From: Nonomuraea fuscirosea
Lineage (GTDB): Bacteria > Actinomycetota > Actinomycetes > Streptosporangiales > Streptosporangiaceae
Reading direction: 5' to 3'
Length of the DNA: 64,000 nucleotides
NCBI RefSeq assembly: GCF_003001935.1
Contig: NZ_PVNG01000033.1
Coordinates: 1 to 64,000 of the forward strand
The notes under the pieces are model-generated. The model was not told the DNA's origin, searched no databases, and saw only the letters and a list, made by a program, of their open reading frames with translations. The translations under genes were made by a program, and so were the position numbers. Positions within the stretch are counted from its first letter, which is position 1, and each line of letters begins with the position of its first letter. Shown piece after piece: positions 8,003 to 57,854 of this stretch.

Positions 8003-8671
8003 ATGACAGTTGCGTTCCGCCCTCGACCGAGCGTCGTCCGGCGAGATTCCGGACTCTACGCCTATGAGCGGGCGCTCGCTCGCCGCGGCCTCAGCCCGAT
8101 CGCGGGCGTGGACGAGGCCGGCCGCGGCGCGTGCGCCGGGCCGCTGGTGGTCGCGGCCGTCATCCTGCGCAAGCAGGTCGACGGCCTGGCAGACTCCAAA
8201 CTTCTCACCCCCCAGGTGCGCGAACGACTCTACGAGCAGATCATCCGCGTCTCCCATGTAGGCATAGTGATCATCCCGTCGGGGGAGATCGACGCCAAAG
8301 GTCTTCACAAGTGCAACGTTTCAGGAATGCGGCGAGCTGTCGCACAGTTGCCCTGTGACCCGGAGTACATCCTGACGGACGGCTTCCCGGTCCCGGGGCT
8401 ACCGGCGCCGTCTCTGGCCGTGTGGAAGGGGGACCAGGTGGCCGCATGCGTGGCGGCGGCGTCGATCGTGGCCAAGGTGACTAGGGATCGCCTCATGGTC
8501 ACGCTCGACGAGCGCTACCCGCTGTACGGCTTCGCCGAACACAAGGGGTATGTCACACCAGGACACCGGCTGGCGCTGGAAACGCATGGCCCGTGTCCTG
8601 ATCACCGTTTCTCCTTCGTCACGGTGGCGAGGGGGATGGGTGAAAATGAAATGGGGGCCGGGGTTGCCTGA
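8003..8671 (+). CDS. rnhB: Ribonuclease HII
   Basis: The 222-residue enzyme cuts RNA in RNA/DNA hybrids and at single ribonucleotides in DNA. The catalytic carboxylates are visible: D37 and E38 in [10 protein letters not shown]126 in LTDGFPV and D162 in KVTRDRLM. Start ATG 8003 is preceded by a short spacer without a strong ribosome-binding site. The lepB-rnhB-DUF2469 order is conserved in actinobacteria. Confidence 0.96.
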
Positions 8672-30758: not shown

Positions 30759-30878
30759 ACGAGATGACTGTAGATCGGGCGGTGACCAACGCGCGAGCCA
30801 TGACGTGACCAGGAATGCCACCTCCGATCCGAACGTTCATTACCCTGGTCGACAACCCCTCAAAGCAAAGGCAGTAAC

Positions 30879-35930: not shown

Positions 35931-37778
35931 TCAGCCGGGCGGGGCCAGGTGCGGACGCTGGGAGCGCTTGCTGGCCTCGTACGTCTCCCGCGCCGCGTAG
36001 GTGGCGCTGGTCGTCCCCACCTGCGCCACGGGCACGTCCCACCACGCCTCGGAGGAGGGCACGTCGTCGGCCATCCGGTCGGTGCGTACGTAGACGACCG
36101 TGGTCTCCGAAGCCGAACGTGCGTCGTCGAGCGCCTTGCGCAGGTCGGCGACCGTCTCGGGACGCAGCACGGTGGCGCCGAGACTGGCCGCGTTGGCCGC
36201 CAGATCGACCGGCAGCGGACCGCCGTCGTGCCGCTGGTAGGCGGTGCCGAGCCGCTCGGCGCCCACGCTCTCCGACAGGCGCCCGATGGAGGCGAAGCCG
36301 GAGTTGTCGACCAGGACGACGACGAGCTTGACGCCCTCGGAGACGGCGGTGACGAGCTCCTGGGCCATCATCAGGTAGGAGCCGTCGCCGACCAGCACGA
36401 ACACCTCGCGCTCAGGGCGGGCCATCTTCACGCCGAGGCCGCCGGCGATCTCGTAACCCATGCAGGAGTAGCCGTACTCGACGTGGTAGGAGCCGGGGCC
36501 GCTGGGCCGCCAGAGTTTGTGCAGGTCGCCCGGCATCGAGCCGGCCGCGCACACCACCACGCCGTCGTCGCCCGCCGCCTCGTTGACCGCGCCGATCACG
36601 GCGGACTGCGGGATGGGGGTGCCCTCCACCGCGTACGCCCGGTCAACGGCGGAGTCCCAGGCCCGGGTCAGCTCGGCGGCCCGCTCCCGGTAGGCGGCCG
36701 GCGTGCCCCAGCCCGCGCACGCCTCGGTCAGGTCGGCCAGTCCTTCGCGGGCGTCGGCGACCAGTTGCAGGCCCGACAGCTTGGCGGCGTCGAAGCCGGT
36801 GATGTTGAGGTTCACGAACCGGGCGGAGGGGGCGAAGATCGTCCGGGAGGCGGTGGTGAAGTCGCTGTAGCGGGTGCCGACGCCGATGATCACGTCGGCC
36901 TCGCGGGCCAGCGCGTTGGCGGCCGTGGTGCCCGTCGCGCCGACGGCGCCCAGCGCGAGCGGATGACCGTGCGGCAGCGCGCCCTTGCCGGCCTGGGTCT
37001 CGGCCACGGGGACGCCGTGCGCCTCGGCGAAGGCGCGCAGCTCGTCGGTGGCCTCACCGTAGATCACGCCGCCGCCGGCCACGATCAGCGGCCGCTCGGC
37101 CGCCCTGATCAGCTCGGCGGCCCGCGCCAGAGCCGCGCGTTCCGGGCGCGGCCTGGGGATGTGCCAGACGCGGTCGGCGAACAGCTCGTCCGGCCAGTCG
37201 AACGCCTCCGCCTGAACGTCCTGCGGCAGCGCCAGCGTCACCGCGCCGGTCTCGGCCGGGTCGGTGAGCACCCGCATGGCGGCCAGCAGCGCGGACGGCA
37301 GCTGCTCGGGGCGGTTGATCCGGTCCCAGAAGCGGGAGACCGGCTTGAAGCAGTCGTTGACCGAGATGTCGTAGGAGCGCTGGTCCTCCAGCTCCTGCAG
37401 CACCGGGCTGGCGACGCGGGTGGAGAAGATGTCGCCGGGCAGCAGCAGCACGGGCAGGCGGTTGATGGTCGCCCCGGCCGCGCCGGTGATCATGTTGGTG
37501 GCGCCGGGGCCGATGGAGGTGGTGCAGGCCAGGGTGGTCAGCCGGTTGCCGGCGCGGGCGTACGCGGCGGCGGTGTGCACCATCGCCTGCTCGTTGCGGC
37601 TGAGGTGGTAGGGCAGGTCCTCGGCGGAGGTGGCCAGCGCCTGGCCGAGGCCGGCCACGTTGCCGTGGCCGAAGATGCCGACGCAGCCGCCGAAGAACCT
37701 GCGCTCGACGCCGTCGCGTTCGCTCCACTGGTGGGCCAGGAAGCGCACGACGGCCTGCGCGACGGTCAGCCGGATCAC
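35931..37778 (-). CDS. iolD: 3D-(3,5/4)-trihydroxycyclohexane-1,2-dione hydrolase IolD
   Basis: The 615-residue thiamine-diphosphate enzyme opens the ring of the inositol catabolite diketo-inositol to 5-deoxyglucuronate. The TPP-activating glutamate is E63 in SRNEQAMVHTAAAYAR. The TPP/Mg motif starts at GDGS (464-467) and runs to the Asn of VVLVDNSGF. CTTSIGPGATNMITGAAGAT and FGHGNVAGLG at the start are typical IolD features. It overlaps iolB by 4 bp (ATGA) and is the last gene of the leftward operon. Confidence 0.96.
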   Translation of the reverse strand: MIRLTVAQAVVRFLAHQWSERDGVERRFFGGCVGIFGHGNVAGLGQALATSAEDLPYHLSRNEQAMVHTAAAYARAGNRLTTLACTTSIGPGATNMITGAAGATINRLPVLLLPGDIFSTRVASPVLQELEDQRSYDISVNDCFKPVSRFWDRINRPEQLPSALLAAMRVLTDPAETGAVTLALPQDVQAEAFDWPDELFADRVWHIPRPRPERAALARAAELIRAAERPLIVAGGGVIYGEATDELRAFAEAHGVPVAETQAGKGALPHGHPLALGAVGATGTTAANALAREADVIIGVGTRYSDFTTASRTIFAPSARFVNLNITGFDAAKLSGLQLVADAREGLADLTEACAGWGTPAAYRERAAELTRAWDSAVDRAYAVEGTPIPQSAVIGAVNEAAGDDGVVVCAAGSMPGDLHKLWRPSGPGSYHVEYGYSCMGYEIAGGLGVKMARPEREVFVLVGDGSYLMMAQELVTAVSEGVKLVVVLVDNSGFASIGRLSESVGAERLGTAYQRHDGGPLPVDLAANAASLGATVLRPETVADLRKALDDARSASETTVVYVRTDRMADDVPSSEAWWDVPVAQVGTTSATYAARETYEASKRSQRPHLAPPG

Positions 37779-38614
37779 GATGTCCTCCCGAAGGGCAGCC
37801 TGGGGTCGATGGGCTGGGCCTCCCAGGACGAGCGGATCCAGGCGTGGCGGGGATCGTCGCAGAACGCCATCGAACGCTGCTCCCCTGGGCCCGCCAGGAC
37901 GTTGAGGTAATAGAGGTCGTAGCCGGGGGCGGCCATGGAGGGACCGTGGTAGCCGTAAGGGACGAGGACCACGTCGCCGGATGAGACCTCGGCGAGGGTG
38001 TCGATCTGGCCTCCCTCGGAGGAGTAGACGCGCTGGTAGCCGATGCCCTGGTCGCCGACCTCGAAGTAGTAGATCTCCTCCAGCACGGCCTCGCCCGGGT
38101 TGGGGGTGTCGTGCTTGTGCGGCGGATAGGAGGACCAGTTGCCGTCGGGGGTGAGCACCTCCACGGCCATGAGCTTGTCGCAGTCGAAGGCGTCGGGGCT
38201 GCAGAAGTTGTTGACCTGGCGGCTGGCCCGGCCCGCCCCCCTGATCTCGACGGAGACCTCGGCTGCGGCGACGTAGCGCGGGGGCAGCGCCCGGGTGGCG
38301 CGGGCGGAGGGGAACGCGATGCGTCCCGCGCCCGACACGGTGATTTTCGTAGAAATCGGGATATAGGCGAAATCGGAGGGGCCGTCGAAGACCGAGGCGC
38401 GGCCCGTCAGCACGAACGTGTCATCGGGCAGGGTGACCGTGCACGAGCCGGCCAGCGGCAGGACGAGCATCTCCTCCTCACCGGTGTCGAACGTGACCGG
38501 AGCCTCGCTCAGATCCGCGACCCGCAGGCCCGAGTAGGTCCAGCCCGCCAGCGACGGGGTGATCCGCACCGACCAGGGGCCGTCGGCGGTCTTGCCGTAG
38601 GGCAGATAGGTCAT
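37775..38614 (-). CDS. iolB: 5-deoxy-glucuronate isomerase IolB
   Basis: The 279-residue cupin enzyme converts 5-deoxyglucuronate to 2-deoxy-5-keto-gluconate. The metal site is visible in SSYPPHKHDTPNPGEAVLEEIYYFEV (His, His and Glu), and VPYGYHGPSMAAPGYDLYYLNVLAGP is the second conserved block. It shares 4-bp overlaps with both iolD and the aldolase gene. Length is normal. Confidence 0.96.
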   Translation of the reverse strand: MTYLPYGKTADGPWSVRITPSLAGWTYSGLRVADLSEAPVTFDTGEEEMLVLPLAGSCTVTLPDDTFVLTGRASVFDGPSDFAYIPISTKITVSGAGRIAFPSARATRALPPRYVAAAEVSVEIRGAGRASRQVNNFCSPDAFDCDKLMAVEVLTPDGNWSSYPPHKHDTPNPGEAVLEEIYYFEVGDQGIGYQRVYSSEGGQIDTLAEVSSGDVVLVPYGYHGPSMAAPGYDLYYLNVLAGPGEQRSMAFCDDPRHAWIRSSWEAQPIDPRLPFGRTS

Positions 38615-39528
38615 GCTCCAGCCTCTCGCACCAGGGCTGCGGCGCCGTCCACCGCGGTCGCCACGTCGTCGTCCGGGGGGTAGAGCAGGGCGCGCCCCAC
38701 CACGAGGCCGCGGACGCCGGGCAGGCCCAGCGCCCGGTGCCAGTCGGCGTAGGCGGCGTCGATGTCGGGCGGGTCACCGCCGAGGAGCAGCGCGGGCAGC
38801 GTGGTCGCGGCCATCACCCGCTCCATCTCGGCCACGGCGGGGATCTTCAGCCAGGTGTAGGCGGAGGTGACGCCGAGGGCCTGGGCGATGCTGATGGAGC
38901 GGATCACGGCGTCGGGCGACAGGTCGTTGCGGACGACGCCGGACTCCGAGCGCAGCGACCAGAACGGCTCCACCATGGCCACCAGCCGCCTGCGGGCCAG
39001 GCCGGTGACCGCCTGGGCGCACGACTCCAGAGTGGCCACGGTCGCGTGGTCGGAGGGGTCGATGCGGCACAACATCTTGCCGCCGTCGAGCCGCATGGCG
39101 TCGATCGAGTCGGCGTCGAAGCCGGTGAACCGGTCGTCCATCTCGAACACCGAGCCCTGCAGACCGCCCCTGTTCATGGAGCCGAAGGCCAGCTTGCCCT
39201 CCAGCGCGCCGAGCAGCAGCAGGTCCTCCAGGACGTCGGGGGAGGCCAGGATGCCGTCCACCCCCGGCCTGGACAGCGCCACCCGCAGCCGGTCGAGCAG
39301 GTCGACGCGGCTGGCCATGGCCAGCGGCCGGTCGCGTACGCCCAGTGAGCCCCTGGCCGGATGGTCGGCGGCGATGATCAGCAGCCGCTCGCCCTCGGCC
39401 GGCAGGCCGCGCCGCTCGCGGCGGGCCGCGGCCGCGGCGATCTCCTCCGGCCGGGTGGCGCGGATGTGCGTGAGCCGCGCGTAGTCGGTCGCCCGCGCGT
39501 CGGTCACGGACAGTGTCGTGTCGCTCAA
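38611..39528 (-). CDS. Cgl0158-type aldolase of inositol catabolism
   Basis: The 305-residue protein resembles the DeoC/FbaB-like aldolases called Cgl0158 family, found in actinobacterial iol clusters. Features are LLIIAADHPARGSLG, GILASPDVLEDLLLLG, RLDGGKMLCRIDP and TSAYTWLKIPAVAEM, where the lysine of LKIP is a candidate Schiff base. It probably cleaves 2-deoxy-5-keto-gluconate-6-phosphate to dihydroxyacetone phosphate and malonate semialdehyde, the role of IolJ. Assignment of substrate is from context. It overlaps iolC and iolB by 4 bp each. Confidence 0.85.
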   Translation of the reverse strand: MSDTTLSVTDARATDYARLTHIRATRPEEIAAAAARRERRGLPAEGERLLIIAADHPARGSLGVRDRPLAMASRVDLLDRLRVALSRPGVDGILASPDVLEDLLLLGALEGKLAFGSMNRGGLQGSVFEMDDRFTGFDADSIDAMRLDGGKMLCRIDPSDHATVATLESCAQAVTGLARRRLVAMVEPFWSLRSESGVVRNDLSPDAVIRSISIAQALGVTSAYTWLKIPAVAEMERVMAATTLPALLLGGDPPDIDAAYADWHRALGLPGVRGLVVGRALLYPPDDDVATAVDGAAALVREAGA

Positions 39529-40463
39529 GATCCGGCCCCGTTCAGCAGATCCTCCACCTCGGCGGTCGTCGGCATGGCGTCGGCGCAGGCCAGGCGAGCC
39601 GCGACGAACGCGCCGGCCGCGTTGGCGAAGCGCAGGGTGCGCTCCAGCGGCCAGCCGCGCAGCAGCCCGAGGCAGATGGCTCCGCCGAACGCGTCTCCCG
39701 CGCCGATCCCGTTGACCACCTTCACCTCCATGGGCTCCACCACTGCGCTCTCCTCAGAGGTACGCGCGAAAACCCCTTCGGGGCCCATTTTCACGATCGC
39801 GACGCGTACGCCGGCGTCCAGCAGCGCCTGCGCGGCCGCCTCCGGATCGCGTACGCCGACCGCGACCTCGACCTCCTCCAGGTTGCCTACCGCCACGTTC
39901 ACCTGCGGCAGGGCCCGGCGCGCGGCCTCGTGCGCGGCCTCGCGCGACTCCCACAGCGTGGCCCGGTAGTCGAGGTCGAACACCGTCCATCCGGACGTGC
40001 GCGCCGACAGGGCGGCGGCGTGGGCGGCGGCGCTCGGCTCCTGGCTCAGCCCGGTCAGCGAGAACCAGAACAGCTCGGTCGCGCGGATCGCGTCGAGGTC
40101 GAGCAGGTCGGGGGAGATCTGCAGGTCGGGCGGATGCTCGCCGCGATAGAAGTAGATGGGGAAGTGGTCGGGCGGGAAGATCTCGCAGAACGTCACGGGC
40201 GTCGGACGGCCTTCGACGGTGTGCACGAAGGCGTCGTCCACGCCGAAGCCGCGGATGGCCCGGCGCACGTAGTCTCCGAACGGATCCGCTCCGACTCCGG
40301 TGATCACCGCCGGTCTGAGCCCGTGGCGGGCGGCGGCGACGGCGACGTTGGTGGGACTGCCGCCGAGGAACTTCCCGAAGGTCTCGACGTCGGCGAGGCC
40401 GACGCCGGTCTGGAGCGGATAGACGTCGACGCCGCTGCGCCCGAACGTGATCAGGTCGTACAA
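39525..40463 (-). CDS. iolC: 5-dehydro-2-deoxygluconokinase IolC
   Basis: The PfkB-family sugar kinase phosphorylates 2-deoxy-5-keto-gluconate. It has LYDLITFGRSGVDVYPLQ at the N-terminus, GKFLGGSPTNVAVAAARHGL, and the C-terminal PfkB signature NGIGAGDAFGGAI with the catalytic Asp. I chose the TTG at 40463, four bases after GGAGG, giving 312 residues. The longer frame from an ATG at 40514 would run through an operator and adds unconserved residues. This is the first gene of the leftward iolC-aldolase-iolB-iolD operon. Confidence 0.93.
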   Translation of the reverse strand: MYDLITFGRSGVDVYPLQTGVGLADVETFGKFLGGSPTNVAVAAARHGLRPAVITGVGADPFGDYVRRAIRGFGVDDAFVHTVEGRPTPVTFCEIFPPDHFPIYFYRGEHPPDLQISPDLLDLDAIRATELFWFSLTGLSQEPSAAAHAAALSARTSGWTVFDLDYRATLWESREAAHEAARRALPQVNVAVGNLEEVEVAVGVRDPEAAAQALLDAGVRVAIVKMGPEGVFARTSEESAVVEPMEVKVVNGIGAGDAFGGAICLGLLRGWPLERTLRFANAAGAFVAARLACADAMPTTAEVEDLLNGAGS

Positions 40464-40508
40464 CGCACCTCCAGGGGGCCCGAGCTTTGCGTGGCTACTA
40501 TGGCATAT

Positions 40509-40518
40509 TGTCATGACA
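40509..40518. promoter_or_regulatory. Operator TGTCATGACA, iolC side
   Basis: Perfect 10-bp palindrome, 46 bp from the iolC start. It matches the consensus I remember for the GntR-type IolR regulator of Corynebacterium (KGWCHTRACA). No regulator gene for it lies in the window. Confidence 0.75.
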
Positions 40519-40587
40519 TTCGGATGTCCGCTATGTTGCCAGATGTCCTCAGCCTGGGGGCCCTATGGCAAGGTCTTTACGTCATAT

Positions 40588-40603
40588 ATATGTCATGACA
40601 TAT
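40588..40603. promoter_or_regulatory. Operator ATATGTCATGACATAT, ABC transporter side
   Basis: Perfect 16-bp palindrome with the same TGTCATGACA core as the iolC-side site. It lies 46 bp before the start of the binding-protein gene, so both divergent units have an operator at nearly the same distance. Confidence 0.8.
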
Positions 40604-40649
40604 TGGACCTTCTGGCTTCCTCCCCAAAAGCACACGTCGGAGGGTTTGC

Positions 40650-42041
40650 ATGGCACTGCGGAAACGGTCGGTAGGTGTGGTCGCGGTCATCGCCGCGGCC
40701 GGTCTGGGGCTCGCTGCCTGCGGCCAGTCGTCGTCCGGGGGAGGCGGTGACGCGATCGAGCTGACGATCGCCCAGAACGCCATCCAGGGCGGCAAGAACG
40801 AGGCGGCCGCGAAGTTCATCGCCGACTGGGTCATCCCCAAGTTCCAGGAGGCCCAGAAGGCGAAGGGCAAGGACGTCACGGTCAAGTTCGTTCCCAGCGG
40901 CGTCGACGACGAGCAGTACAAGACCAAGCTCTCCCTGGACCTCAAGTCCGGCAAGGGCGCGGACGTGATCGACATCGACAGCATCTGGGCCGGCGAGTTC
41001 GCCGAGGCCGGCTACATCAAGCCGCTGACGGAGGTGGCCGGGGCCGAGGCCGACAGCTGGGACGGCTGGTCGCAGATCCCCGAGGCGGTCCAGGGGATGA
41101 CCGAGTTCAACGGCAAGAAGTACGCCCTGCCCGTCGGCACCGACGGCCGCGTCCTCTACTTCAACAAGACCCTGTTCGCCAAGGCCGGGCTGCCCGCCGA
41201 CTGGCAGCCGAAGAGCTGGCAGGAGGTCCTCGACGCCGGCACCAAGCTCAAGTCCTCCGGCGTGCCCGTGCCGATCCAGATCAACGCCGGCACCGCCATG
41301 GGCGAGGCCACCTCGATGCAGGGCGTGCTGCCGCTGCTCGCCGGCGCGGGCGGCGAGGTGCAGCAGGACGGCAAGTGGAGCGGCGCCTCCCAGCCGCTCA
41401 AGGACGCGCTCGGCCTCTACCAGAAGATCTACGGCGGCGGCCTCGGCGACCCCAAGCTCCAGCAGGAGGCCAAGGGCCGCGACAAGTCGTTCCAGCAGTT
41501 CGCCGACGGCAAGATCGGCATCCTGATGGAGGGCGACTACTTCTGGCGCGGCGTGGTCAACCCCAAGACGGGCGTGGCCAAGATGGCCGACCGCGACCAG
41601 GTCGTCGGCTACGCCATGATCCCGGCCATGGAGCCCGGCAAGGGCATCCGCGGCCAGGACTTCGTCAGCATGTCCGGCGGCGCGCTGCGGACGGTCAACC
41701 CCAACACCAAGCACCCGAAGGAAGCCTTCGAGCTGCTGACCTTCATGCTCTCCCCGGAGGCGCTGAAGGAGGAGACCAAGGACGGCAATGTGCGCATCAC
41801 GCCGCGCAGCGACGTCAACAAGGAGATCCTCGCCGGTGAGCCGCTGCTGACGTTCATCTCGGAGAAGGTGCTGCCGCTGACGGCCTACCGGCCGCCGGTC
41901 GCCGCCTACCCGCAGGTGTCGGTGGCGCTGCAGGAGGCGACCGCGGCGGTCGTCGGCGGAACCGCGCCCGACCAGGTCGCGGCCGACTACCAGAAGAAGC
42001 TCGAAGGAATCGTCGGTGGCGCAGGCAACATCGCCTCCTGA
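40650..42041 (+). CDS. Carbohydrate ABC transporter substrate-binding lipoprotein
   Basis: The 463-residue exported lipoprotein has a basic start, hydrophobic core and lipobox LAAC with C24 (GLGLAACGQSSSG). The rest is a family 1 extracellular sugar-binding protein: ADVIDIDSIWAGEFAEAGYIKPL, FNGKKYALPVGTDGRVLYFNKTLFAKAGLP and FADGKIGILMEGDYFW. It first meets the substrate of the rightward operon. The substrate cannot be read from sequence; the GH38, PHP and inositol genes suggest a mannose- or inositol-containing glycoside. It overlaps the first permease by 26 bp. Confidence 0.92.
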   Translation: MALRKRSVGVVAVIAAAGLGLAACGQSSSGGGGDAIELTIAQNAIQGGKNEAAAKFIADWVIPKFQEAQKAKGKDVTVKFVPSGVDDEQYKTKLSLDLKSGKGADVIDIDSIWAGEFAEAGYIKPLTEVAGAEADSWDGWSQIPEAVQGMTEFNGKKYALPVGTDGRVLYFNKTLFAKAGLPADWQPKSWQEVLDAGTKLKSSGVPVPIQINAGTAMGEATSMQGVLPLLAGAGGEVQQDGKWSGASQPLKDALGLYQKIYGGGLGDPKLQQEAKGRDKSFQQFADGKIGILMEGDYFWRGVVNPKTGVAKMADRDQVVGYAMIPAMEPGKGIRGQDFVSMSGGALRTVNPNTKHPKEAFELLTFMLSPEALKEETKDGNVRITPRSDVNKEILAGEPLLTFISEKVLPLTAYRPPVAAYPQVSVALQEATAAVVGGTAPDQVAADYQKKLEGIVGGAGNIAS

Positions 42042-42948
42042 GACGCGGCCCGAGGACGAGGCGCAGGCCCCCCGCTACAGCTCTGACGCGGCGGGCCTGG
42101 GCAAGGCGCGGGCCGGGGCCTTCGCGGCGCCGGCCCTGCTGCTCATCGCGGTCTTCCTCGTCTTCCCCGCGCTCTGGGTGCTCTATCTCGGACTCACCAA
42201 CTACCGCCTGACCGGCACCGCGGCCGCCGAGCCGCAGTTCGTCGGCCTGGACAACCTGCTCGACGCGGTCTCCAACCCCACGTTCTGGAGCTCGACCTGG
42301 CTGACCGTGCAGTTCGTGCTCGGCTCGGCCGTCATCGGGCAGGTCGGCCTCGGCTTCGCCATCGCCTGGCTGCTGCGCGACCGGCGCGGCCCGCTCAAGC
42401 GCGTGGTCGAGGGCCTGGTCATCCTGGCCTGGATCCTGCCCAGCGCGATCGTGTCGTTCCTGTGGGTGGCGCTGCTCGACCGCGACGGCGGCACGCTCAA
42501 CGCGCTGCTCGGCCTGCCCGGCTTCGCCTGGCTGCTCGACCACCCGATGCTCTCGATCATCGTGTTCAACACCTGGCGCGGCACGGCCTTCTCGATGATG
42601 TTGTACGGCGCCGCCCTCGGCAACGTGCCCCCCTCCCACCTGGAGAGCGCCCGCCTGGCTGGCGCCTCCGGCTGGCAGCAGCTCAGGGACGTGGTGTTCC
42701 CGCACATCAGAGGCCACATCCTGACCAACCTGCTGCTGATCAGCCTGTGGACGTTCAACGACTTCAGCCCGTTCCTGCTCACCGCGGGCGGCCCCGACGG
42801 CAAGTCCGAGGTGCTCGCCGTGCACGTGTACAAGGTGGCGCTGCAGAGCGGTGAACTGGGCTACGGCGCCGCCGTCTCCACGATCATCCTGTTGATCAAC
42901 CTGGTCGTGGCGGTGTTCTACCTGCGGCTGCTGCGGAGCAAGAAATGA
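42016..42948 (+). CDS. Carbohydrate ABC transporter permease 1 (MalF type)
   Basis: The 310-residue membrane protein has six transmembrane helices and the permease loop EAA-like segment LESARLAGASGWQQLRDVVFPHIRGH. Helix 1 (APALLLIAVFLVFPALWVLYLG) and WFSMMLYG-like RGTAFSMMLYGAALG fit MalF-type permeases. The GTG start at 42016 is inside the end of the binding-protein gene. It overlaps permease 2 by 4 bp. Confidence 0.93.
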   Translation: MAQATSPPETRPEDEAQAPRYSSDAAGLGKARAGAFAAPALLLIAVFLVFPALWVLYLGLTNYRLTGTAAAEPQFVGLDNLLDAVSNPTFWSSTWLTVQFVLGSAVIGQVGLGFAIAWLLRDRRGPLKRVVEGLVILAWILPSAIVSFLWVALLDRDGGTLNALLGLPGFAWLLDHPMLSIIVFNTWRGTAFSMMLYGAALGNVPPSHLESARLAGASGWQQLRDVVFPHIRGHILTNLLLISLWTFNDFSPFLLTAGGPDGKSEVLAVHVYKVALQSGELGYGAAVSTIILLINLVVAVFYLRLLRSKK

Positions 42949-43763
42949 CGCGTTTCGTCCTGGGCCGGATCGGGTTCTACACGCTGATCGCGGTGCTGCT
43001 GGCCTTCTTCACCGTGCCGCTGCTGTGGCTGGTGACGGCGCCGTTCACCTCGGACCCCACGTACGAGGTGCGGGTGCCGGACTTCACCTGGGACAACTTC
43101 GCCGCGTTGCTGGAGCACCCGTACGCGCTGCCGTCGCTGTGGAACTCGGTCGTGCTGTCGGCCGGCACCGCCGTGCTGGTCGTGATCTTCGCGGCGCTGG
43201 CCGCGTACGCGCTCAGCCGGGTGCGGCTGCCGGGCCGCGACGCACTGCTGTACGCGTTGCTGCTGCTGTCGTCGATCATCACCGGGACGGCGGCGATGGT
43301 TCCGCTGTTCCAGCTCGCGGTGGAGCTGAACCTGATCGACTCGCAGTTCGGACTGATCCTCATTCTCACCGGCGGGCTGCTGCCCGCGGCGATCTTCATG
43401 CTGAAGGACTTCATGGACTCCACGCCGAAGTCCTACGAGGAGTCGGCCCGGGTGTTCGGGGCCTCGCCGCTGCAGATCGTGCGTGACGTGGTGGTGCCGC
43501 TGGTGCGGCCCGGCCTCGCGACCATCGCCGTCTGGGCCGTGGCCAACGTGTGGGGCAACTTCCTGATGCCGTACCTGTTGCTGAGCGACGTGGAGAAGCA
43601 GCCGGCGGCGGTGATCACGTACACGCTGTACACCGAGGGCGGGCAGGCCAACCTCAGCATGTTGTCCACGTTCGGGCTGCTCTACTCGATCCCGGTGGTC
43701 CTCATGTACCTGTTCGTCAGCAAGAAGTACGGCTTCCGCTTCCACGGAGGGATCAAGCGTTAA
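42945..43763 (+). CDS. Carbohydrate ABC transporter permease 2 (MalG type)
   Basis: The 272-residue membrane protein has six helices and the EAA loop YEESARVFGASPLQIVRDVVVPLVRPGL, as in MalG-type permeases. FYTLIAVLLAFFTVPLLWLVTAPFTSDP is the usual N-terminus. ATGA overlap with permease 1 and TAATG overlap with the ATPase gene show a tight operon. Confidence 0.93.
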   Translation: MTRFVLGRIGFYTLIAVLLAFFTVPLLWLVTAPFTSDPTYEVRVPDFTWDNFAALLEHPYALPSLWNSVVLSAGTAVLVVIFAALAAYALSRVRLPGRDALLYALLLLSSIITGTAAMVPLFQLAVELNLIDSQFGLILILTGGLLPAAIFMLKDFMDSTPKSYEESARVFGASPLQIVRDVVVPLVRPGLATIAVWAVANVWGNFLMPYLLLSDVEKQPAAVITYTLYTEGGQANLSMLSTFGLLYSIPVVLMYLFVSKKYGFRFHGGIKR

Positions 43764-44827
43764 TGGCCGCCATCGAACTACGCGGGCTGACCAAGGTCTA
43801 CCCCGGCGGGGTCAGAGCGCTCGACGCGCTCGACCTGGTCATCCCCGACGGCGAGTTCTTCGCCCTGCTCGGCCCCTCCGGCTGCGGCAAGACCACGCTG
43901 CTGCGCACGATCGCCGGGCTGGAGACCGCCACCGGCGGCGCCGTGGTCATCGGCGACCGGGACGTGACGGGCGTGCAGCCGGGCGCCAGGGACGTGGCCA
44001 TGGTGTTCCAGGACTACGCGCTGTTCCCGCACATGGACGTCACGGACAACATCGCCTACCCGCTGCGGATCAAGAAGGTGTCCAAGAACGACCGCCGCGA
44101 CAAGGCCGCCGAGGTCGGGGCGCGGCTAGGGCTCGAACACCTCATGGACCGGCGCCCCGGGCAGCTGTCCGGCGGGCAACAGCAGCGGGTCGCACTGGCC
44201 CGGGTGATGGCCACGCAGGCGCAGGCGTTCCTGTTCGACGAGCCGCTGTCCAACCTGGACGCGCGGCTGCGGCTGGAGGCGCGTACGTTCCTCAAGAAGC
44301 TGCAGCGCGAGCTGGGCGTCACCACCGTCTTCGTCACCCACGACCAGGCCGAGGCCCTGGCCATGGCCGACCGGATGGCGGTCATGGAATCCGGGCACAT
44401 CCGGCAGATCGGTACGCCGGCCGAGGTGTTCCAGCGGCCGGCCAACACGTTCGTGGCCGGCTTCATCGGCTCCACGCCGATGAACCTCCTGGACGGCGTC
44501 GTCCGAGGTGACACGCTGGAAGTGGCGGGCTGCAAGGTCGCGGTCCCGGCCGCGGCGGAGGGCCGGCTGTCCGACGGAGGGAAGATCGTGTACGGCGTGC
44601 GTCCCGAGTACATGACGTACTCGGCCGAGCCCGCTGACGGCGCGCTGGGCGGGAAGGTGTCCATCGTGGAGAACCTGGGCGCCTCCCACCTGGTGACCCT
44701 CGACGTCAACGACGTGAACGTGCAGGCCGTCGTGCCCGAGGGCAGCGAGCCCGCCGTGGGCGACGACGGATACGCGCTGCCCAGGCGCGACCGCGCCCTC
44801 GTCTACCTGGACGGAGAACTGGTGTGA
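43763..44827 (+). CDS. Carbohydrate ABC transporter ATP-binding protein (MsmK/UgpC type)
   Basis: The 354-residue ATPase has Walker [10 protein letters not shown], signature [13 protein letters not shown], Walker B AFLFDEPLSNLD and the switch FVTHDQAEALAMADR, followed by a C-terminal OB-fold regulatory domain (about 240-354, GVRPEYMTYS). The start is ATG 43763, overlapping the previous stop. Unlike many actinomycete sugar uptake operons, which share one distant MsiK ATPase, this one carries its own. It overlaps the PHP gene by 4 bp (GTGA). Confidence 0.93.
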   Translation: MAAIELRGLTKVYPGGVRALDALDLVIPDGEFFALLGPSGCGKTTLLRTIAGLETATGGAVVIGDRDVTGVQPGARDVAMVFQDYALFPHMDVTDNIAYPLRIKKVSKNDRRDKAAEVGARLGLEHLMDRRPGQLSGGQQQRVALARVMATQAQAFLFDEPLSNLDARLRLEARTFLKKLQRELGVTTVFVTHDQAEALAMADRMAVMESGHIRQIGTPAEVFQRPANTFVAGFIGSTPMNLLDGVVRGDTLEVAGCKVAVPAAAEGRLSDGGKIVYGVRPEYMTYSAEPADGALGGKVSIVENLGASHLVTLDVNDVNVQAVVPEGSEPAVGDDGYALPRRDRALVYLDGELV

Positions 44828-46002
44828 GAGGCCACTGGACGCTGGACGACCGGCTGGAGCGGATCCTGCGCGAGGTGCCGTTCGAGGTGCCGGCCGGGAC
44901 CGCCGCCGTGCACGTGAAGCTGTCGTACGACAGGTCGCAAGGGGTGCTCGACCTCGGGTGCGGCGCGCCGGACGGCTTCCGCGGCTGGTCGGGTGGCGCC
45001 CGCGACGAGTACACGATCACCCGCGACTGGGCCACCCCCGGCTACCTGCCGGGCGAGCCGGAGGCGGGCACGTGGCACGTCTGGCTGCGCCTGCACCGGA
45101 TCCCGGCGCAGGGGCTGGACTACACCCTGGAGATCACGGCCGAGCCCGTCGCCCCGCCCGAGCCCGTGGCCGAGGAGCCGCCGCACGGTGAGCGCCCGCC
45201 CCGCCGGGACATCCCCGGCGTGGACGGCCTGACCTGGTACGCCGGCGACTTCCACGCCCACACCCTGCACAGCGACGGCAGCCTGACCATCCCCGAGCTG
45301 GCCGAGCTGGCCCACGGGCGCGGCCTCGACTTCCTGGCCGTCACCGACCACAACACGGTCAGCCACCACCCCTGGCTGGCCAAGACCGGCCGCGACATCA
45401 CGCTCATCCCCGGCCAGGAGGTCACCACCGACCGCGGCCACGCGAACGTGTTCGGCGACGTCGGCTGGGTCGACTTCCGCGAGCGCCCCGACTCCTGGCT
45501 CGACCACGCCGAGCGCGCGGGCGGCCTCATGTCGATCAACCATCCGCTCGGCGGCGACTGCGCCTGGCTGCAGCCGATCGACCGCCGTCCTCCGATCGCC
45601 GAGGTGTGGCATTCCGGCTGGTGGGATCGCCGCTGGGGCGCCCCGCTGGCCTGGGCGGACGCCTGGCGCGACGACCTGATCGTGATCGGCGGCAGCGACT
45701 TCCACAAGCACGGCAACGACGGCCTGCCCGGCGCGCCCACGACGTGGGTGCTGGCCGAGGACACCGGCGCCGTGCTCGACGGCGTGCGCGCCGGGCGCAC
45801 CGCCGTCTCCGCCGGCCCCGACGCGCCGCTGCTGCTCAGGCTGGGCGACGAACTGCTCGCCCTCGACGCCGACGGCCTGGTGCTGGTGCGCCCCGACGGC
45901 ACCCGGCAGGTGGTGCGCGGCGAACGCGCGCTGCTGCCGGCGATCGACGGCCGGCACCGGCTGGAAACCTATGAGAACGAGGTGATCGCCCTATGCGCGT
46001 GA
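44824..46002 (+). CDS. PHP-domain metallohydrolase (CehA/McbA-like)
   Basis: The 392-residue protein has an N-terminal beta-rich part (about 1-130) and a PHP phosphoesterase-type domain: DFHAHTLHSDGS (142-153), TDHNT (174-178), a metal-ligand Glu in PGQEVTT (E199), SINHP and GGSDFHKH. These supply the ligands for a two- or three-metal centre. The family includes phosphodiesterases and the McbA/CehA carbamate esterase group. There is no signal peptide. Within this operon a phosphodiester bond on the imported sugar is the attractive target, but that is inference. Confidence 0.85.
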   Translation: MRGHWTLDDRLERILREVPFEVPAGTAAVHVKLSYDRSQGVLDLGCGAPDGFRGWSGGARDEYTITRDWATPGYLPGEPEAGTWHVWLRLHRIPAQGLDYTLEITAEPVAPPEPVAEEPPHGERPPRRDIPGVDGLTWYAGDFHAHTLHSDGSLTIPELAELAHGRGLDFLAVTDHNTVSHHPWLAKTGRDITLIPGQEVTTDRGHANVFGDVGWVDFRERPDSWLDHAERAGGLMSINHPLGGDCAWLQPIDRRPPIAEVWHSGWWDRRWGAPLAWADAWRDDLIVIGGSDFHKHGNDGLPGAPTTWVLAEDTGAVLDGVRAGRTAVSAGPDAPLLLRLGDELLALDADGLVLVRPDGTRQVVRGERALLPAIDGRHRLETYENEVIALCA

Positions 46003-46886
46003 GGAAAATCGCCAACGCCCCCGTGAGCTTCGGCGTCTTCGAGCTGAGCGACGCGCCGCCGCCGCTCGGCCCCGACGAGATGGTCCGCGCGCTGGCCGAC
46101 GCCGGCTACGAGGGCATCGACTCCGGGCCCATCGGCTACCTGGGCACCGGCTCCGAGCTGGCCGATCGGCTGGCCGGCGCCGGGCTGCTGCTGGCCGGCG
46201 GCTGGGTGGACCTGCGCTACGAGGACGCGGACGCCTACGCGAGCGGGCTGCCCGCGCTGGAGGCGGCGCTCGACGTGTTCGCCGCCGCCCCCGCCGGTGA
46301 CCTGCCGCCGCGGCCCACGCTGGCCTGCTCCACCTCGGCCGAGCGCTTCGCCCGGCCCGGCGGGAGCGTTCCAGGACTGGCCGCCTCCGACTGGCCCGCC
46401 TACGCCGCCCGCATCCAGGAGGCCACCGACCGGTGCAGGGAGCGCGGGTTCGAACCCGCCTTCCACCACCACCTCGGCACGAACATCGAGACGCCGCAGG
46501 ACGTCGAACGCCTGCTGGAGCTCACCGACGTGCACCTCTGCCTCGACACCGGGCATCTCCTGCTGGCCGGGGGCGACCCGGTCGAGTGCCTGCGCGCCTG
46601 GGCCGACCGGGTCGACCACGTGCACATCAAGGACGGCGACACGAAGATCCTGGCCCAGGCCCTGGCCGACGGCGTGGACCTGCGCGAGCTCATGGGCCGC
46701 GGCGGGTTCGCCCGGCTCGGCGAGGGCGAGCTGGACCTGCCCGCCGTGGTGCGCACGCTGGACGAGATCGACTACGAGGGCTGGATCATCATCGAGCAGG
46801 ACACCCTGCCCGGCCGGCGCTCGGTCGCCCAGAACATCGCCGACCAGGCGGCCAACCGTCAGATGCTGAAGGACTTGGGACTTTGA
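45993..46886 (+). CDS. Sugar phosphate isomerase/epimerase, IolE/IolH-like TIM barrel
   Basis: The 297-residue AP-endonuclease-2-like TIM barrel starts IANAPVSFGVFEL, similar to the N-terminus of inosose dehydratases and related isomerases. Metal ligands are likely in PAFHHHLGTNIET, HLCLDTGHLLLAGGD, DHVHIKDGD and GWIIIEQDTL. It is a candidate 2-keto-myo-inositol dehydratase or inosose isomerase for the cluster. It overlaps the PHP gene by 10 bp and the dehydrogenase gene by 4 bp. Confidence 0.82.
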   Translation: MRVRKIANAPVSFGVFELSDAPPPLGPDEMVRALADAGYEGIDSGPIGYLGTGSELADRLAGAGLLLAGGWVDLRYEDADAYASGLPALEAALDVFAAAPAGDLPPRPTLACSTSAERFARPGGSVPGLAASDWPAYAARIQEATDRCRERGFEPAFHHHLGTNIETPQDVERLLELTDVHLCLDTGHLLLAGGDPVECLRAWADRVDHVHIKDGDTKILAQALADGVDLRELMGRGGFARLGEGELDLPAVVRTLDEIDYEGWIIIEQDTLPGRRSVAQNIADQAANRQMLKDLGL

Positions 46887-47962
46887 GAATCGCGCTTGTG
46901 GGTTGCGGGGCCGTCACCCAGGCGGTCTACGTGCCGCTGCTGTCGCGGCGGCGTGACCTGTTCGAGGTGAGCGCCGTCTGCGACCTGTCGCGCACGCTCG
47001 CCGACGCCGTGGGCGACCGGCTGGGCGCCGCCGGACGATACACGTCGGTGGACGACCTGCTCGCCGCCGGCGGCTTCGAGGCCGTCGTCGTGCTGGCCTC
47101 TGGCTCGCACGGCGAGACCGTCAGGAAGGCCCTGGCTGCCGGGTACGCCGTGCTCTGCGAGAAGCCGCTCGCGCTGACCAGGGCCGAGGTGGCCGCGCTG
47201 CCGGAAGGGCGGCTCATGGTCGGCTACATGAAGCAGTACGACCCCGCCGTACGCCGGGCCGAGGAGGCCCTGGCCGCGCTCGGCGGCCCCGAGGCGATCC
47301 GCGCGGTCGAGGTCACCGTGCTGCACCCGAGCGGGGAGTCGCAGCTCGCCTTCGCCAACCTGACCCAGGCACGCGACGTGGACCAGGACCTGCTCGCCTC
47401 CCTGCGGGCGGCCGAGCACGAACTGGTGTCGCGGGCGCTCGGCGAGGCGGCCCCCGAACCGGTCAGGAACCTGTACGGGGTGGCGCTGGGCTCCATCTGT
47501 CACGACCTGTCGCTCCTGCGCCGCTTCACCGGCTCACCCCAGGAGATCTCGTACGTCGAGACGTGGGGTTCGGCCCCCGGCTCCATCGAGATCTCGGGGC
47601 CGCTGCCGGTCCGGGGCAGGTTCTCCCTGCGCTGGCACTATCTGGAGGACTATCCCGCCTACCGCGAGACCGTGGCGATCCACCACGATCGCGGCTCCCT
47701 CGAACTGGTCTTCCCCTCGCCGTACCTGATGAACGCGCCGACCACGCTGACCGTGGTGTCCGACGCGGAGAGCAGGGCACATTGGCGCGAGGTGACTGAG
47801 GCGTTCGAAGTACAGCTCGCGGCCTTTCATGCTTACGTGAACGATGGCAAGCCGCCCCTCACCGACGCGGGTGGCGGGCTCGAGGACATCGTCACGGCGC
47901 AGCGGATCGCGGCCCGTTACGCCGTGCAGCATGATCTGCCCATTGGAGGGGAGGCAGCGTGA
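46883..47962 (+). CDS. Gfo/Idh/MocA-family oxidoreductase
   Basis: The 359-residue NAD(P)-dependent dehydrogenase has the Rossmann start RIALVGCGAVTQAVYVPLL and the EKPLA motif (93-97) with the family lysine K94. A conserved His-containing segment is SICHDLSLLRR. Members oxidise sugars and cyclitols, for example inositol 2-dehydrogenase. The TTG start overlaps the previous stop (TTTGA). It overlaps the GH38 gene by 4 bp (GTGA). Substrate is unproven; oxidation of inositol or of a glycosyl-inositol is likely from context. Confidence 0.88.
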   Translation: MRIALVGCGAVTQAVYVPLLSRRRDLFEVSAVCDLSRTLADAVGDRLGAAGRYTSVDDLLAAGGFEAVVVLASGSHGETVRKALAAGYAVLCEKPLALTRAEVAALPEGRLMVGYMKQYDPAVRRAEEALAALGGPEAIRAVEVTVLHPSGESQLAFANLTQARDVDQDLLASLRAAEHELVSRALGEAAPEPVRNLYGVALGSICHDLSLLRRFTGSPQEISYVETWGSAPGSIEISGPLPVRGRFSLRWHYLEDYPAYRETVAIHHDRGSLELVFPSPYLMNAPTTLTVVSDAESRAHWREVTEAFEVQLAAFHAYVNDGKPPLTDAGGGLEDIVTAQRIAARYAVQHDLPIGGEAA

Positions 47963-50703
47963 GCAAGGAGATCGTCGTCGTTCCGCACACGCACTGGGAC
48001 CGGGAGTGGTACGAACCCTTCCAGCGTTTCCGGCTGCGCCTGGTGGCGTTGATGGACGAAGTGCTCGACACGATGGAACGCGAGCCCGCCTACCACTTCA
48101 CCCTCGACGGGCAGCTCGCCTGCGTGGACGACTACCTGGAGGTGCGCCCGGAGAACCGCGACCGCCTGGCCGCCCTGGTGGAGTCCGGGCGGCTGGCCGT
48201 GGGCCCGTGGCAGATCCTGCTCGACGAGTTCCTGTGCTCGGGCGAGAACATCATCCGCAACCTGGAGCTCGGCATGGCCAGGGCGGACAAGCTCGGCGGC
48301 GCCATGCCGGTCGGCTACCTGCCGGACATGTTCGGCCACACCGCCCAGATGCCGCAGATCCTGCGCAAGGCCGGGCTGTTGCACGCCTGCGTCTACCGCG
48401 GCGTCCCGTCCTCCGTCACCACCGACGCCTTCGCCTGGGTCGCCCCCGACGGCACCGCGCTGCGCACCCAGTACCTGCCCGCGGGCGGCTACGGCAACGG
48501 CGCCCACCTGTTCTCCGACACCGAAGGGCTGAAGGAGCGGGCGGAGTCCTTCGTCACGACCATGCGCGGTTGGCACGGTCCCGAGGGGCCGCTGCTCGCC
48601 ATGTACGGCACCGACCACTCCGCCCCCGTACGCGGGCTGCCGGACATGGTCGCCGCCATCGACGCCCGGATGGACACCCTGTCCGGCTACATCGGCGCGT
48701 ACAGCGGTGACGTCGAGGGCCTGCCGGAGGTGCACGGCGAGCTGCGCTCCCACGCCAGGGCCAACATCCTGCCCGGCGTCATCTCCATCCGCGCCCACGT
48801 CAAGCAGGCCATGAGCCGGGCCGAGCGGATGGTCGAGCGCTACGCCGAGCCGCTGGCCGCCCTCTGGGGCGAGGAGTGGCCCGGTCGCTTCCTCGACATG
48901 GCGTGGTGGCGGCTGGTGGACGCCAGCGGGCACGACTCCGTGACCGGCTGCGGCGTCGACGACACCGCCCAGCAGGTCGCCGCCCGCGTCGCCGAGGCCG
49001 AGCACCTCGGCCAGGCCGTGCGCGACATGGTGACCGCCCGCCTGGCGCGCTCCGTCCCGTCCGACGCGGCGCTCGTCGTCAACCCGACGCCGGCCGCCCG
49101 GCAGGGCGTCGTCGTCGTGGACGTGGCGGGCAGCGACCCGCTGATCGACCCGGCCGGCCGGCCCGTGCCCACGCAGCCGCTGGAGTACGCCTCCACGCTG
49201 CTGCTCGACGAGACCATGGACCCCGCCACGGCGCTGACCTTCGTCCACGGCACCGAGCTGTACGGGCAGCAGATCACCGCCTGGTCGGTCGAGGACGGGA
49301 CGCTGACGTTCAAGGTCGCGCGGGAGACGTCGGAGCTCGTCGACATGGACGAACTGCGCCGCTCCATCGACGGCGTGACCCGCGTCCGCATCGAGGCCGA
49401 GCCCCGGCGCACCGTCGCGGCCCTGGTGGGGGTCCCCCCGCTCGGCCACACGAGCGTCCGCCCCGCGCCCCGCGACCAGGTCTACGGGCCGCCCAGCGTC
49501 CCGGAGGACCACAGCCTGCGCGAGCACCACCCGGCCTGCTGGCTCAGGTCCGACTCCGCGCCCCTGCCGGTGCGCGGCGACGAGGAGGTGCTGGACAACG
49601 GGCTGCTCCGGGTCCTGATCGCCCGCGACGGCACGCTGACGCTGGTCGGCGAGGACGGCACCACCGTCACCGGCGCCGGGCGCATCGTCAACCGCGGCGA
49701 CGTGGGCGACACCTACAACTACGCGCCCCCGCTGGCAGACCAGGAGGTGGTCGAGGCGGAGATGGTCACCATCGAGCCGGTCACCTCGGGGCCGCTGATC
49801 GCGGCGGTCGACGTCCGGCGCGTCTACAACTGGCCGGCCTCGGCGGAGATCTCGGCGGGCAGCCCGGAGATCCCCGCCATCACGCGCAGCTCCAGGGTCG
49901 AGGAGATCGTCGTCAACACCCGCGTCGAGCTGCGCGCCGGCGAGCCGTTCGTGCGGCTGCGGGTCGAGTTCGACAACCGCTGCGAGGACCACCGCGTACG
50001 CCTGCACATACCGCTGCCGCAGACGGCCACCGAGTCGCACGCCGAAGGGCAGTTCGCGGTCGTCACCCGGGGGCTCACCTCCGAGGGCGGCTGCGGCGAG
50101 GAACCGCTGCCCACCTTCCCCGCCTCCTCCTGGGTGGCCGCGGGCGGCGTGGCCGCGCTGCTGGAGCACGTGACCGAGTACGAGGTGATCGACGGCGGCA
50201 CCGAGCTGGCCCTGACACTGCTCCGCTCGGTCGGCTACCTGTCGCGCAACCGCAACGTCCTGCGTCCGGAGCCGGCCGGCCCGCAGTTGCCGACCCCCGC
50301 CGCCCAGTCCCGCGGGCTGCGCACGGTGGAGCTGGCGCTGATGCCGTACGGAGGCTCGTGGGAGGAGGTCGTGCCCGCGGCCGAGTCCTTCCGGCACGAC
50401 CTGCTGGTGGTGCCCGGCCAGGGTGAGCCGTTCCTGCCGCTGCCCGAGGCGGGGGCCGGGATCTCGGTGATGGGTCACGGCGTGACGATGACCTCGCTGC
50501 GCGAACGCGACGGCTGGCACGAGCTCCGCGTCGTCGCCTCCACCCCGAACCCCACCGAGGCCGTCATCTCCGGCGACCTCGTGGCCGCCCGCCACGCGGA
50601 CCTGCGCGGCCGCCCCGGCGACCCGATCGAGATCACGGAGGGGGAGGTGCGGCTGCCGCTGGACGCCTGGGAGATCGCGACCATCCAGTTCCGTAAACTC
50701 TGA
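47959..50703 (+). CDS. GH38 alpha-mannosidase
   Basis: The 914-residue glycoside hydrolase has the family 38 start VVPHTHWDREWYEPFQRFR, where H12 and D14 match the zinc ligands. The nucleophile is D123 in GYLPDMFGHTAQMPQIL, and the fourth zinc ligand is H325 in DASGHDSVTGCG. An alpha-helical middle and a long C-terminal beta domain follow. No signal peptide is present, so it acts in the cytoplasm on imported oligosaccharide, releasing mannose with retention. It is the last gene of the rightward operon. Other GH38 specificities cannot be excluded. Confidence 0.94.
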   Translation: MSKEIVVVPHTHWDREWYEPFQRFRLRLVALMDEVLDTMEREPAYHFTLDGQLACVDDYLEVRPENRDRLAALVESGRLAVGPWQILLDEFLCSGENIIRNLELGMARADKLGGAMPVGYLPDMFGHTAQMPQILRKAGLLHACVYRGVPSSVTTDAFAWVAPDGTALRTQYLPAGGYGNGAHLFSDTEGLKERAESFVTTMRGWHGPEGPLLAMYGTDHSAPVRGLPDMVAAIDARMDTLSGYIGAYSGDVEGLPEVHGELRSHARANILPGVISIRAHVKQAMSRAERMVERYAEPLAALWGEEWPGRFLDMAWWRLVDASGHDSVTGCGVDDTAQQVAARVAEAEHLGQAVRDMVTARLARSVPSDAALVVNPTPAARQGVVVVDVAGSDPLIDPAGRPVPTQPLEYASTLLLDETMDPATALTFVHGTELYGQQITAWSVEDGTLTFKVARETSELVDMDELRRSIDGVTRVRIEAEPRRTVAALVGVPPLGHTSVRPAPRDQVYGPPSVPEDHSLREHHPACWLRSDSAPLPVRGDEEVLDNGLLRVLIARDGTLTLVGEDGTTVTGAGRIVNRGDVGDTYNYAPPLADQEVVEAEMVTIEPVTSGPLIAAVDVRRVYNWPASAEISAGSPEIPAITRSSRVEEIVVNTRVELRAGEPFVRLRVEFDNRCEDHRVRLHIPLPQTATESHAEGQFAVVTRGLTSEGGCGEEPLPTFPASSWVAAGGVAALLEHVTEYEVIDGGTELALTLLRSVGYLSRNRNVLRPEPAGPQLPTPAAQSRGLRTVELALMPYGGSWEEVVPAAESFRHDLLVVPGQGEPFLPLPEAGAGISVMGHGVTMTSLRERDGWHELRVVASTPNPTEAVISGDLVAARHADLRGRPGDPIEITEGEVRLPLDAWEIATIQFRKL

Positions 50704-52385: not shown

Positions 52386-52452
52386 ATCCCTTGTCCGGAT
52401 GCTGGCGCTCTGTCAGAGTCGCGGCATCTCAGCCACCTCATCAGGAGGGCGC

Positions 52453-53886: not shown

Positions 53887-53903
53887 GAAGGAAAGACCCT
53901 GGG

Positions 53904-54971: not shown

Positions 54972-54980
54972 CACCCCCTC

Positions 54981-56195: not shown

Positions 56196-56199
56196 CGCG

Positions 56200-57833: not shown

Positions 57834-57854
57834 GAACGAGGGAAGTGGGATTTC

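Follow-up and report, generated by a model that had tools for sequence, protein, structure and literature searches.

Why should genes of inositol catabolism diverge from the same promoter region as a gene for a probable alpha-mannosidase, and what would such an arrangement consume? The question is raised by a 64,000-base stretch of Nonomuraea fuscirosea DNA (referred to as the window; covering 1-64000 on a contig of 97,763 bases in a 12.18 Mb genome, G000), in which two tight operons diverge within 35931-50703 from a common promoter region at about 40464-40649. Profile scans identified the left operon (minus strand) as iolC-aldolase-iolB-iolD and the right operon (plus strand) as an ATP-binding cassette (ABC) importer followed by genes for a PHP metallohydrolase, an IolE-like protein named IolE2 here, a Gfo/Idh/MocA oxidoreductase (Gfo) and a glycoside hydrolase of family GH38. 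Judged from sequence, the block is very probably an inositol regulon under the control of a GntR protein. The wider proposal, that this one regulon possesses an upstream arm for a mannosylated inositol (phospho)conjugate, is finely balanced. In the following, G numbers denote genomes and L numbers genomic loci of relatives.

Operators and the GntR gene

The two operons share an operator class, TGTC-NN-GACA, represented by two sites in the promoter region, both of which were absent from the account of this region in an earlier note on the same DNA:

40509-40518: operator TGTCATGACA, iolC side, perfect palindrome
40591-40600: operator TGTCATGACA, importer side, perfect palindrome

With at most one mismatch, TGTCATGACA occurs three times in the window compared with a mean of 0.88 in shuffles. 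The third site (7999-8008) lies at the start of ORF 8003-8671, by eye rnhB, and was taken as chance. The importer-side operator likely sits inside a promoter whose boxes were read by eye (TTTACG-17-CATATT, with TTTACG as the -35 and CATATT as the -10 box); a promoter scan of the region did not report these boxes. In a DNA alignment the importer-side palindrome and both promoter boxes were invariant in all six same-genus sequences. This alignment spans the iolC-side operator in the window row only, and the remaining loci were read separately: an iolC-side operator was present in all five same-genus loci (L063-L067), as TGTCATGACA in four and as TGTCCTGACA in one.

Among relatives we analyzed the best 80 of 417 confirmed PHP loci, with neighbours sought up to about 10 kb away from PHP. 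At least one TGTCNNGACA site at an iolC, substrate-binding protein (SBP) or PHP promoter was found in 57 of these loci, and 95 of the 100 TGTCNNGACA sites were located at such promoters, while Markov shuffles of all 80 loci yielded 19-27 sites anywhere. An exact TGTCNNGACA at most 200 bases upstream was observed for the SBP gene in 17 of 31 SBP-led loci (eight TGTCATGACA and nine TGTCGTGACA) and for 10 of 17 iolG genes, compared with 17 of 776 other called genes in the same loci. By manual classification, ten of these 17 other genes are divergent neighbours of the core operon using the same intergenic site, and the remainder comprises two phytase genes, two GntR genes and three genes that diverge from an adjacent iolG, GntR or phytase gene. 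The operator counts are uncorrected for kinship, many loci being derived from close relatives. A one-base variant of the operator was present in L069 and L070.

Unlinked iolG genes, in Nonomuraea as well as elsewhere, are preceded by sites of this class too. Eleven further IolG matches, not anchored at the gene start, included four with a site, two of these being TGTCTGGACA. In two other genera, phytase genes (PF02333) near iol genes carry TGTCATGACA just upstream (L198:13393-14733 and L204:14675-16026). Since one operator class is found at iolG, GntR and phytase genes, it appears to mark an inositol regulon that includes the mannosidase operon. A genome-wide scan with a longer degenerate operator pattern yielded 27 matches, each palindrome being counted once per strand, and its reversed control 7; most of the 27 are without clear relevance, and the importer-side operator and the iolG site were recovered. 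The scan missed the iolC-side operator as well as the GntR-gene site and gives no complete count of the G000 regulon.

A gene encoding a GntR/UTRA protein separates the operons or precedes the core in 11 of 12 Micromonospora, two of two Hamadaea and two of seven Streptomyces loci, and the linked protein is 66% identical to the product of a GntR gene adjoining iolG in another genus. The G000 orthologue (C25:98205) is 68% identical to the Micromonospora protein. At this position (L376:1447; G000:C25, about 98.15 kb), TGTCAGGACA lies between the GntR/UTRA gene and a divergent gene of the inositol-monophosphatase family (PF00459), which is divergent from the GntR gene in three of four Nonomuraea genomes and 2.6 kb off in the remaining one. 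In four of four genomes TGTCNNGACA was found just upstream of the Nonomuraea GntR gene, as the sole such site in the 20 kb fetched. The GntR gene at G000:C25 is probably an autoregulated inositol regulator, and we infer that its product binds the operator. SCO6974 of Streptomyces coelicolor, reportedly described by Yu in 2015 as a GntR repressor of myo-inositol catabolism, would be a parallel from another actinomycete.

Gene block and its linkage in relatives

The block consists of the following genes:

35931..37778, minus strand: iolD, 3D-trihydroxycyclohexane-1,2-dione hydrolase (TIGR04377, 909 bits, cut-off 715)
37775..38614, minus strand: iolB, 5-deoxy-glucuronate isomerase (TIGR04378, 304 bits, cut-off 205)
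38611..39528, minus strand: Cgl0159-like aldolase (PF22649, 405 bits)
39525..40463, minus strand: iolC, 5-dehydro-2-deoxygluconokinase (TIGR04382, 362 bits, cut-off 300)
40650..42041, plus strand: ABC importer SBP (PF01547; best solved chain 5ci5, 78 bits)
42016..42948, plus strand: ABC permease 1 (PF00528)
42945..43763, plus strand: ABC permease 2 (PF00528)
43760..44827, plus strand: ABC ATPase, UgpC/MalK type (PF00005; NF008653, 391 bits, under the cut-off of 432), profile-scanned as a longer ORF beginning at 43550
44824..46002, plus strand: PHP metallohydrolase, CehA/McbA family (NF038032, 131 bits, cut-off 80)
45993..46886, plus strand: IolE2 (TIGR04379, 147 bits, under the cut-off of 290)
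46883..47962, plus strand: Gfo/Idh/MocA oxidoreductase (PF01408)
47959..50703, plus strand: GH38 enzyme, probable cytoplasmic alpha-mannosidase (PF01074, 116 bits, over the cut-off)

All genes named by the earlier note are present in two divergent operons; the range that it had given spans the right operon and the promoter region and falls short of the left operon, which reaches to 35931. Adjacent ORFs overlap by 4-26 bases in both operons, internal starts of iolC, the ATPase gene and the Gfo gene having been chosen by hand for these figures. IolC, IolB and IolD each exceed the curated NCBIfam cut-offs for myo-inositol catabolism, and both iolB (at E 1e-20) and the Cgl0159-like aldolase are single matches in the window genome. 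From its position the aldolase is probably the 5-dehydro-2-deoxyphosphogluconate aldolase of the pathway. The most likely start of iolC, from a by-eye reading of the ribosome-binding site and the N-terminus, is the TTG at 40463 downstream of GGAGG, in agreement with the earlier reading.

Gene presence in relatives was scored by tblastn; the simple gene caller misses or misplaces some genes. Some PHP loci stop at contig ends, so linkage counts are lower bounds, and L214 ([Actinomadura] parvosata) was tallied as Nonomuraea. The full block was found in four of the five same-genus genomes fetched, with only the aldolase missing in L064. Importer genes were present in 71 of the 80 PHP loci, GH38 in 76, the IolE-like gene in 55 and Gfo in 56; one of the four loci without GH38 within 10 kb is a 5.3 kb contig. 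At least one of iolC, iolB, iolD and the aldolase gene was found in 50 loci and at least three of these in 45.

By genus, at least one iol gene was near PHP in 36 of 38 Nonomuraea loci (at least three of the four genes in 33), 11 of 12 Micromonospora, one of one Bailinhaonella and two of seven Streptomyces loci, and in none of the 22 loci from Planotetraspora, Hamadaea, Plantactinospora, Actinomadura, Sphaerisporangium and Thermocatellispora. The divergent layout, with three or more iol genes, recurs in ten of the 12 Micromonospora loci, while in Streptomyces hoynatensis and S. lonarensis iolC-aldolase-iolB-iolD follows GH38 in the same orientation. Six Nonomuraea loci (L209, L214, L221, L227, L239 and L282) have PHP-IolE-like-Gfo-GH38 diverging from the iol genes with an operator and no importer between them. 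Elsewhere in the family, many genera have importer-PHP-GH38, often together with Gfo, beside apparent proteasome-type genes (by eye) and away from iol genes. The core is therefore older or more mobile than the linkage. GH38 and iolB also co-occur within the family (37 of 41 versus 52 of 109 genomes, Fisher p 8e-7), but genome size and kinship confound this figure and it was not relied on.

The earlier note had asked for a search of other actinomycetes for GH38, PHP and importer genes beside iol genes, and whether the two operons are ever adjacent in relatives: the combination occurs in Nonomuraea, Micromonospora and Streptomyces, and 50 of the 80 PHP loci have at least one of iolC, iolB, iolD and the aldolase gene within about 10 kb, so that the note's refuting condition of operons never being adjacent fails. 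Its idea that both operons form one regulon was a guess that now appears strongly supported, by the common operators, by linkage in these three genera and by the GntR gene between the operons in Micromonospora.

Dehydration and oxidation steps

IolE2 is very likely the inosose dehydratase of the 13 genomes with the linked system, because these genomes hold iol genes in the same locus and no other IolE homologue was found in them; this also favours the earlier view that the right operon feeds inositol catabolism. IolE2 was the sole TIGR04379 match at E 1e-20 in three of six same-genus genomes (G000, G069 and G141) and the sole match in 10 of 16 linked-copy genomes (four Nonomuraea, four Micromonospora and two Streptomyces), the other six holding one or two more. 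An IolE2 profile scored 115 and 103 bits against solved IolE chains and 45 bits against a 2-hydroxy-3-keto-glucal hydratase (8ro4). In a tree, linked IolE2 proteins form one clade together with two unlinked ones (L127 and L129), apart from other IolE homologues; rows that were incomplete or out of frame (L119, L123 and L132) or that end at a stop (L116, L118 and L126) were ignored.

The enzyme for the preceding oxidation is less clear-cut. The window Gfo protein is not close to IolG (59 bits on TIGR04380, cut-off 355) and is 19-25% identical to three usable IolG candidates; its nearest solved chains by phmmer are DgpA (7xr9, 41.5 bits) and then inositol dehydrogenase (3mz0, 36.9 bits). G000 possesses an unlinked IolG candidate with an operator, which at 238 bits is under the cut-off of 355, an outcome seen in nine of nine genomes scanned. 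Each of the Nonomuraea genomes tested has a separate IolG candidate (best 219-291 bits, all under 355), and those loci that were inspected carry an operator. In six of six linked-system genomes from Micromonospora (G159, G160, G162 and G163) and Streptomyces (G164 and G165), IolG matches did not exceed 106 bits, a score in the range of many other Gfo proteins of these genomes. All six hold linked iol genes and the linked IolE2 as their only IolE homologue. In them the linked Gfo protein is the candidate best placed to carry out the oxidation, and a divergent dehydrogenase encoded elsewhere is possible.

Substrate of the importer arm

GH38 enzymes are alpha-mannosidases, and PHP proteins are mostly phosphoesterases. 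In the proposed mechanism the GntR protein would repress both operons as long as an inositol signal is absent. The ABC importer would bring in an alpha-mannosylated inositol compound that is soluble in water and most likely contains a phosphodiester, candidates being a deacylated phosphatidylinositol mannoside (PIM) or the mannosyl-inositol-phosphate head of a fungal sphingolipid. In the cytoplasm the PHP protein would open the phospho(di)ester and the GH38 enzyme free mannose, and the inositol-monophosphatase-family enzyme of the regulon would take off the phosphate. The cyclitol would then be oxidised by IolG and/or the Gfo protein and dehydrated by IolE2, with IolD, IolB, IolC and the aldolase finishing the pathway.

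Parts of this scheme differ in strength. That the importer arm supplies an inositol-containing compound is likely. That this compound carries alpha-mannose removed by GH38 is somewhat favoured, and a phosphodiester cut by PHP, with the phosphate then removed by the inositol-monophosphatase-family enzyme, is a tentative suggestion just short of an even chance. A mannosyl-inositol(-phosphate) substrate is plausible on the basis of the GH38 and PHP family names together with the phosphatase-family gene near the regulator gene, and deacylated PIMs and fungal mannosyl-inositol-phosphate headgroups fit equally. Mycothiol was set aside as a substrate because GH38 enzymes are alpha-mannosidases.

The hydrolases themselves retain the putative catalytic residues of their families. 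In PHP, which has an N-terminal stretch of about 130 residues ahead of the PHP match and reaches 24.1 bits on Pfam PHP (under the 26.4 cut-off), residues H144, H146, D151, H176, E199, H240, D292 and H294, which we take to be metal ligands, were invariant in 16 of 16 sequences. GH38 residues H12, D14, D123 and H325, presumably the Zn ligands and the Asp nucleophile (H, D, D, H), were invariant in 14 of 14 aligned relatives. No signal peptide was apparent by eye on either protein, so both should act after import. The nearest GH38 model is mannosylglycerate hydrolase MngB (NF007331, 349 bits, cut-off 1138) and the nearest structures are bacterial GH38 enzymes (2wyh and 3lvt). The window enzyme is thus of the same GH38 type by sequence, but it lies far under the model cut-off and in an inositol rather than a mannosylglycerate context. 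A distant GH38 subfamily (about 45-48% identical) with apparent importer genes of its own was observed at L069:1-8000 and L093:15465-18194, and in G077 a GH2 gene (L197:232-3207) and an iol operon follow a GH38 gene of this subfamily within about 5 kb.

Several observations weigh against reading the block as an inositol regulon with a mannosyl-inositol arm. The exact operator was missing in 14 of the 31 SBP-led loci, the TGTCGTGACA form of nine of the 17 SBP-led sites is unlike the TGTCAGGACA and TGTCCTGACA found at iolG, and an operator sought at iolA was found in none of 12. Importer-PHP-GH38 sets without nearby iol genes are common (iol-linked in 0 of 10 Actinomadura, 0 of 3 Sphaerisporangium and 0 of 4 Planotetraspora loci), so they may serve a compound tied to inositol by regulation only, and three Streptomyces loci (L248, L261 and L273) consist of importer and PHP with GH38 missing within 10 kb. 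CehA/McbA enzymes are named for carbamate hydrolysis, not for phosphodiesters. For the phosphatase-family gene the top-scoring model was histidinol-phosphatase (134 bits, cut-off 275), followed by inositol-1-monophosphatase (129 bits, cut-off 332). IolE2 attains 147 of the 290 bits required by TIGR04379, a cut-off that nearly all IolE homologues of the family also miss (one of 150 genomes above it). The catalytic triad of inositol dehydrogenases is given as Lys, Asp and His in PMC9603128. The Gfo protein keeps Lys and His, but the Asp column holds Gly (four) or Thr (one) in five of five rows. Asp is present in two of the three usable IolG candidates (row L166 was in the wrong frame and ignored) and replaced by Gln in the third, L163; Asp is therefore not strict among the candidates and its loss in Gfo is not decisive. 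Finally, the Gfo-IolE2 pair also occurs away from the core and without an operator in L287, L288, L306 and L304, the first three belonging to a genus (g22) that includes Planotetraspora records. In L287 (8335-13405) a GH2 beta-galactosidase-type gene (Pfam) adjoins the unlinked pair, together with apparent importer genes.

Among the alternatives, the best-surviving one is an inositol regulon for another substrate, such as free inositol, another inositol glycoside or a glycosylphosphatidylinositol-type glycan (mannose-glucosamine-inositol), in which PHP would act on an ester of the carboxyl or carbamate type, or on an amide, instead of phosphate; the regulon would then hold and the mannosyl-inositol phosphodiester would not. 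The carbamate-hydrolysing namesakes of the CehA/McbA family and the three Streptomyces loci without GH38 speak for it, while GH38 within 10 kb of PHP in 76 of 80 loci and the phosphatase-family gene at the regulator locus speak against it, and we regard it as rather unlikely.

Oxidative deglycosylation, in which Gfo would make a ketone on the sugar or cyclitol of a glycoside, the triosephosphate isomerase (TIM) barrel of IolE2 would eliminate or hydrate as in 3-keto-glycoside pathways, and GH38 would handle a side chain, appears improbable. Its best evidence is the unlinked, operator-free Gfo-IolE2 pair with the GH2 gene beside it in L287; the ranking of DgpA ahead of inositol dehydrogenase, the missing catalytic Asp and the weak match of IolE2 to the 2-hydroxy-3-keto-glucal hydratase point the same way. 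However, the IolE2 profile favours IolE chains over this hydratase by a wide gap in bits, and no further IolE homologue was found in the 13 genomes with linked iol genes.

Two unrelated operons for mannoside and inositol use lying merely side by side, as might be suspected from the other genera of the family in which the core mostly lacks iol neighbours and often adjoins apparent proteasome-type genes, are highly improbable given the operator at unlinked cores and unlinked iolG, the recurrence of linkage in three genera and two arrangements with the GntR gene between the operons, and the fact that the right-hand operon encodes the only IolE homologue; chance adjacency was rejected on the recurrent linkage and the operators.

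An extension of the mannosyl-inositol reading, which we consider unlikely, is that Micromonospora and some Streptomyces, in which neither a close IolG nor a second IolE homologue was found, possess a self-contained pathway for mannosylated inositol phosphates, with inositol catabolism starting only from the imported glycoconjugate and the Asp-less Gfo and IolE2 acting as a new oxidation-dehydration pair on (mannosyl-)inositol released by PHP and GH38. If true, these organisms would be dedicated to recycling the headgroups of PIM or of fungal sphingolipids. PIMs of actinomycetes and mannosyl-inositol phosphoceramides of fungi should be common in soil.

A survey of iol clusters (PMC9430895) reports large clusters in which regulators, transporters and dehydrogenases are included and divergons are formed. 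The window regulon resembles the bacterial clusters covered there in IolC, IolB, IolD, an IolE homologue and the divergent layout, but differs in adding an ABC importer, a CehA/McbA PHP protein and GH38, in an IolE homologue of a separate clade, and in an IolG candidate that is unlinked (Nonomuraea) or of which no close form was found (the six Micromonospora and Streptomyces genomes). The words mannosidase and ABC transporter are absent from the main text of PMC9430895. The Salmonella-type clusters in that survey likewise contain a glycosidase-like accessory gene, srfJ, whose product SrfJ is suggested to maybe release inositols from sphingolipids; SrfJ is glycosylceramidase-like and listed for 10 species, whereas the window system combines GH38, importer and PHP in actinomycetes.

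The earlier note knew of no described pathway joining these steps, and in the open-access literature we likewise found no description of a link from mannosyl-inositol, PIM or GH38 to inositol catabolism, nor a described route for bacterial salvage of inositol-lipid headgroups; for the latter the regulon names an importer, hydrolases, a regulator and an operator. A published IolR motif of Corynebacterium glutamicum was likewise sought there and not found. It also raises enzyme questions, concerning the roles of the IolE2 clade and the Asp-less Gfo protein and the oxidation of inositol in Micromonospora without a close IolG.

Genes at 52399-59249 (an aldehyde dehydrogenase, a second set of SBP and permease genes and a flavin adenine dinucleotide-dependent oxidoreductase) resemble a system for amine or polyamine use. 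They were rejected as members of the block: allowing one mismatch, no TGTCATGACA-like site was found there, and in other loci these genes do not keep a fixed place next to the core. At 29739-30821 the window contains an ORF matching the SUFU domain (PF05076, 52 bits), whose family takes its name from a signalling protein of animals.

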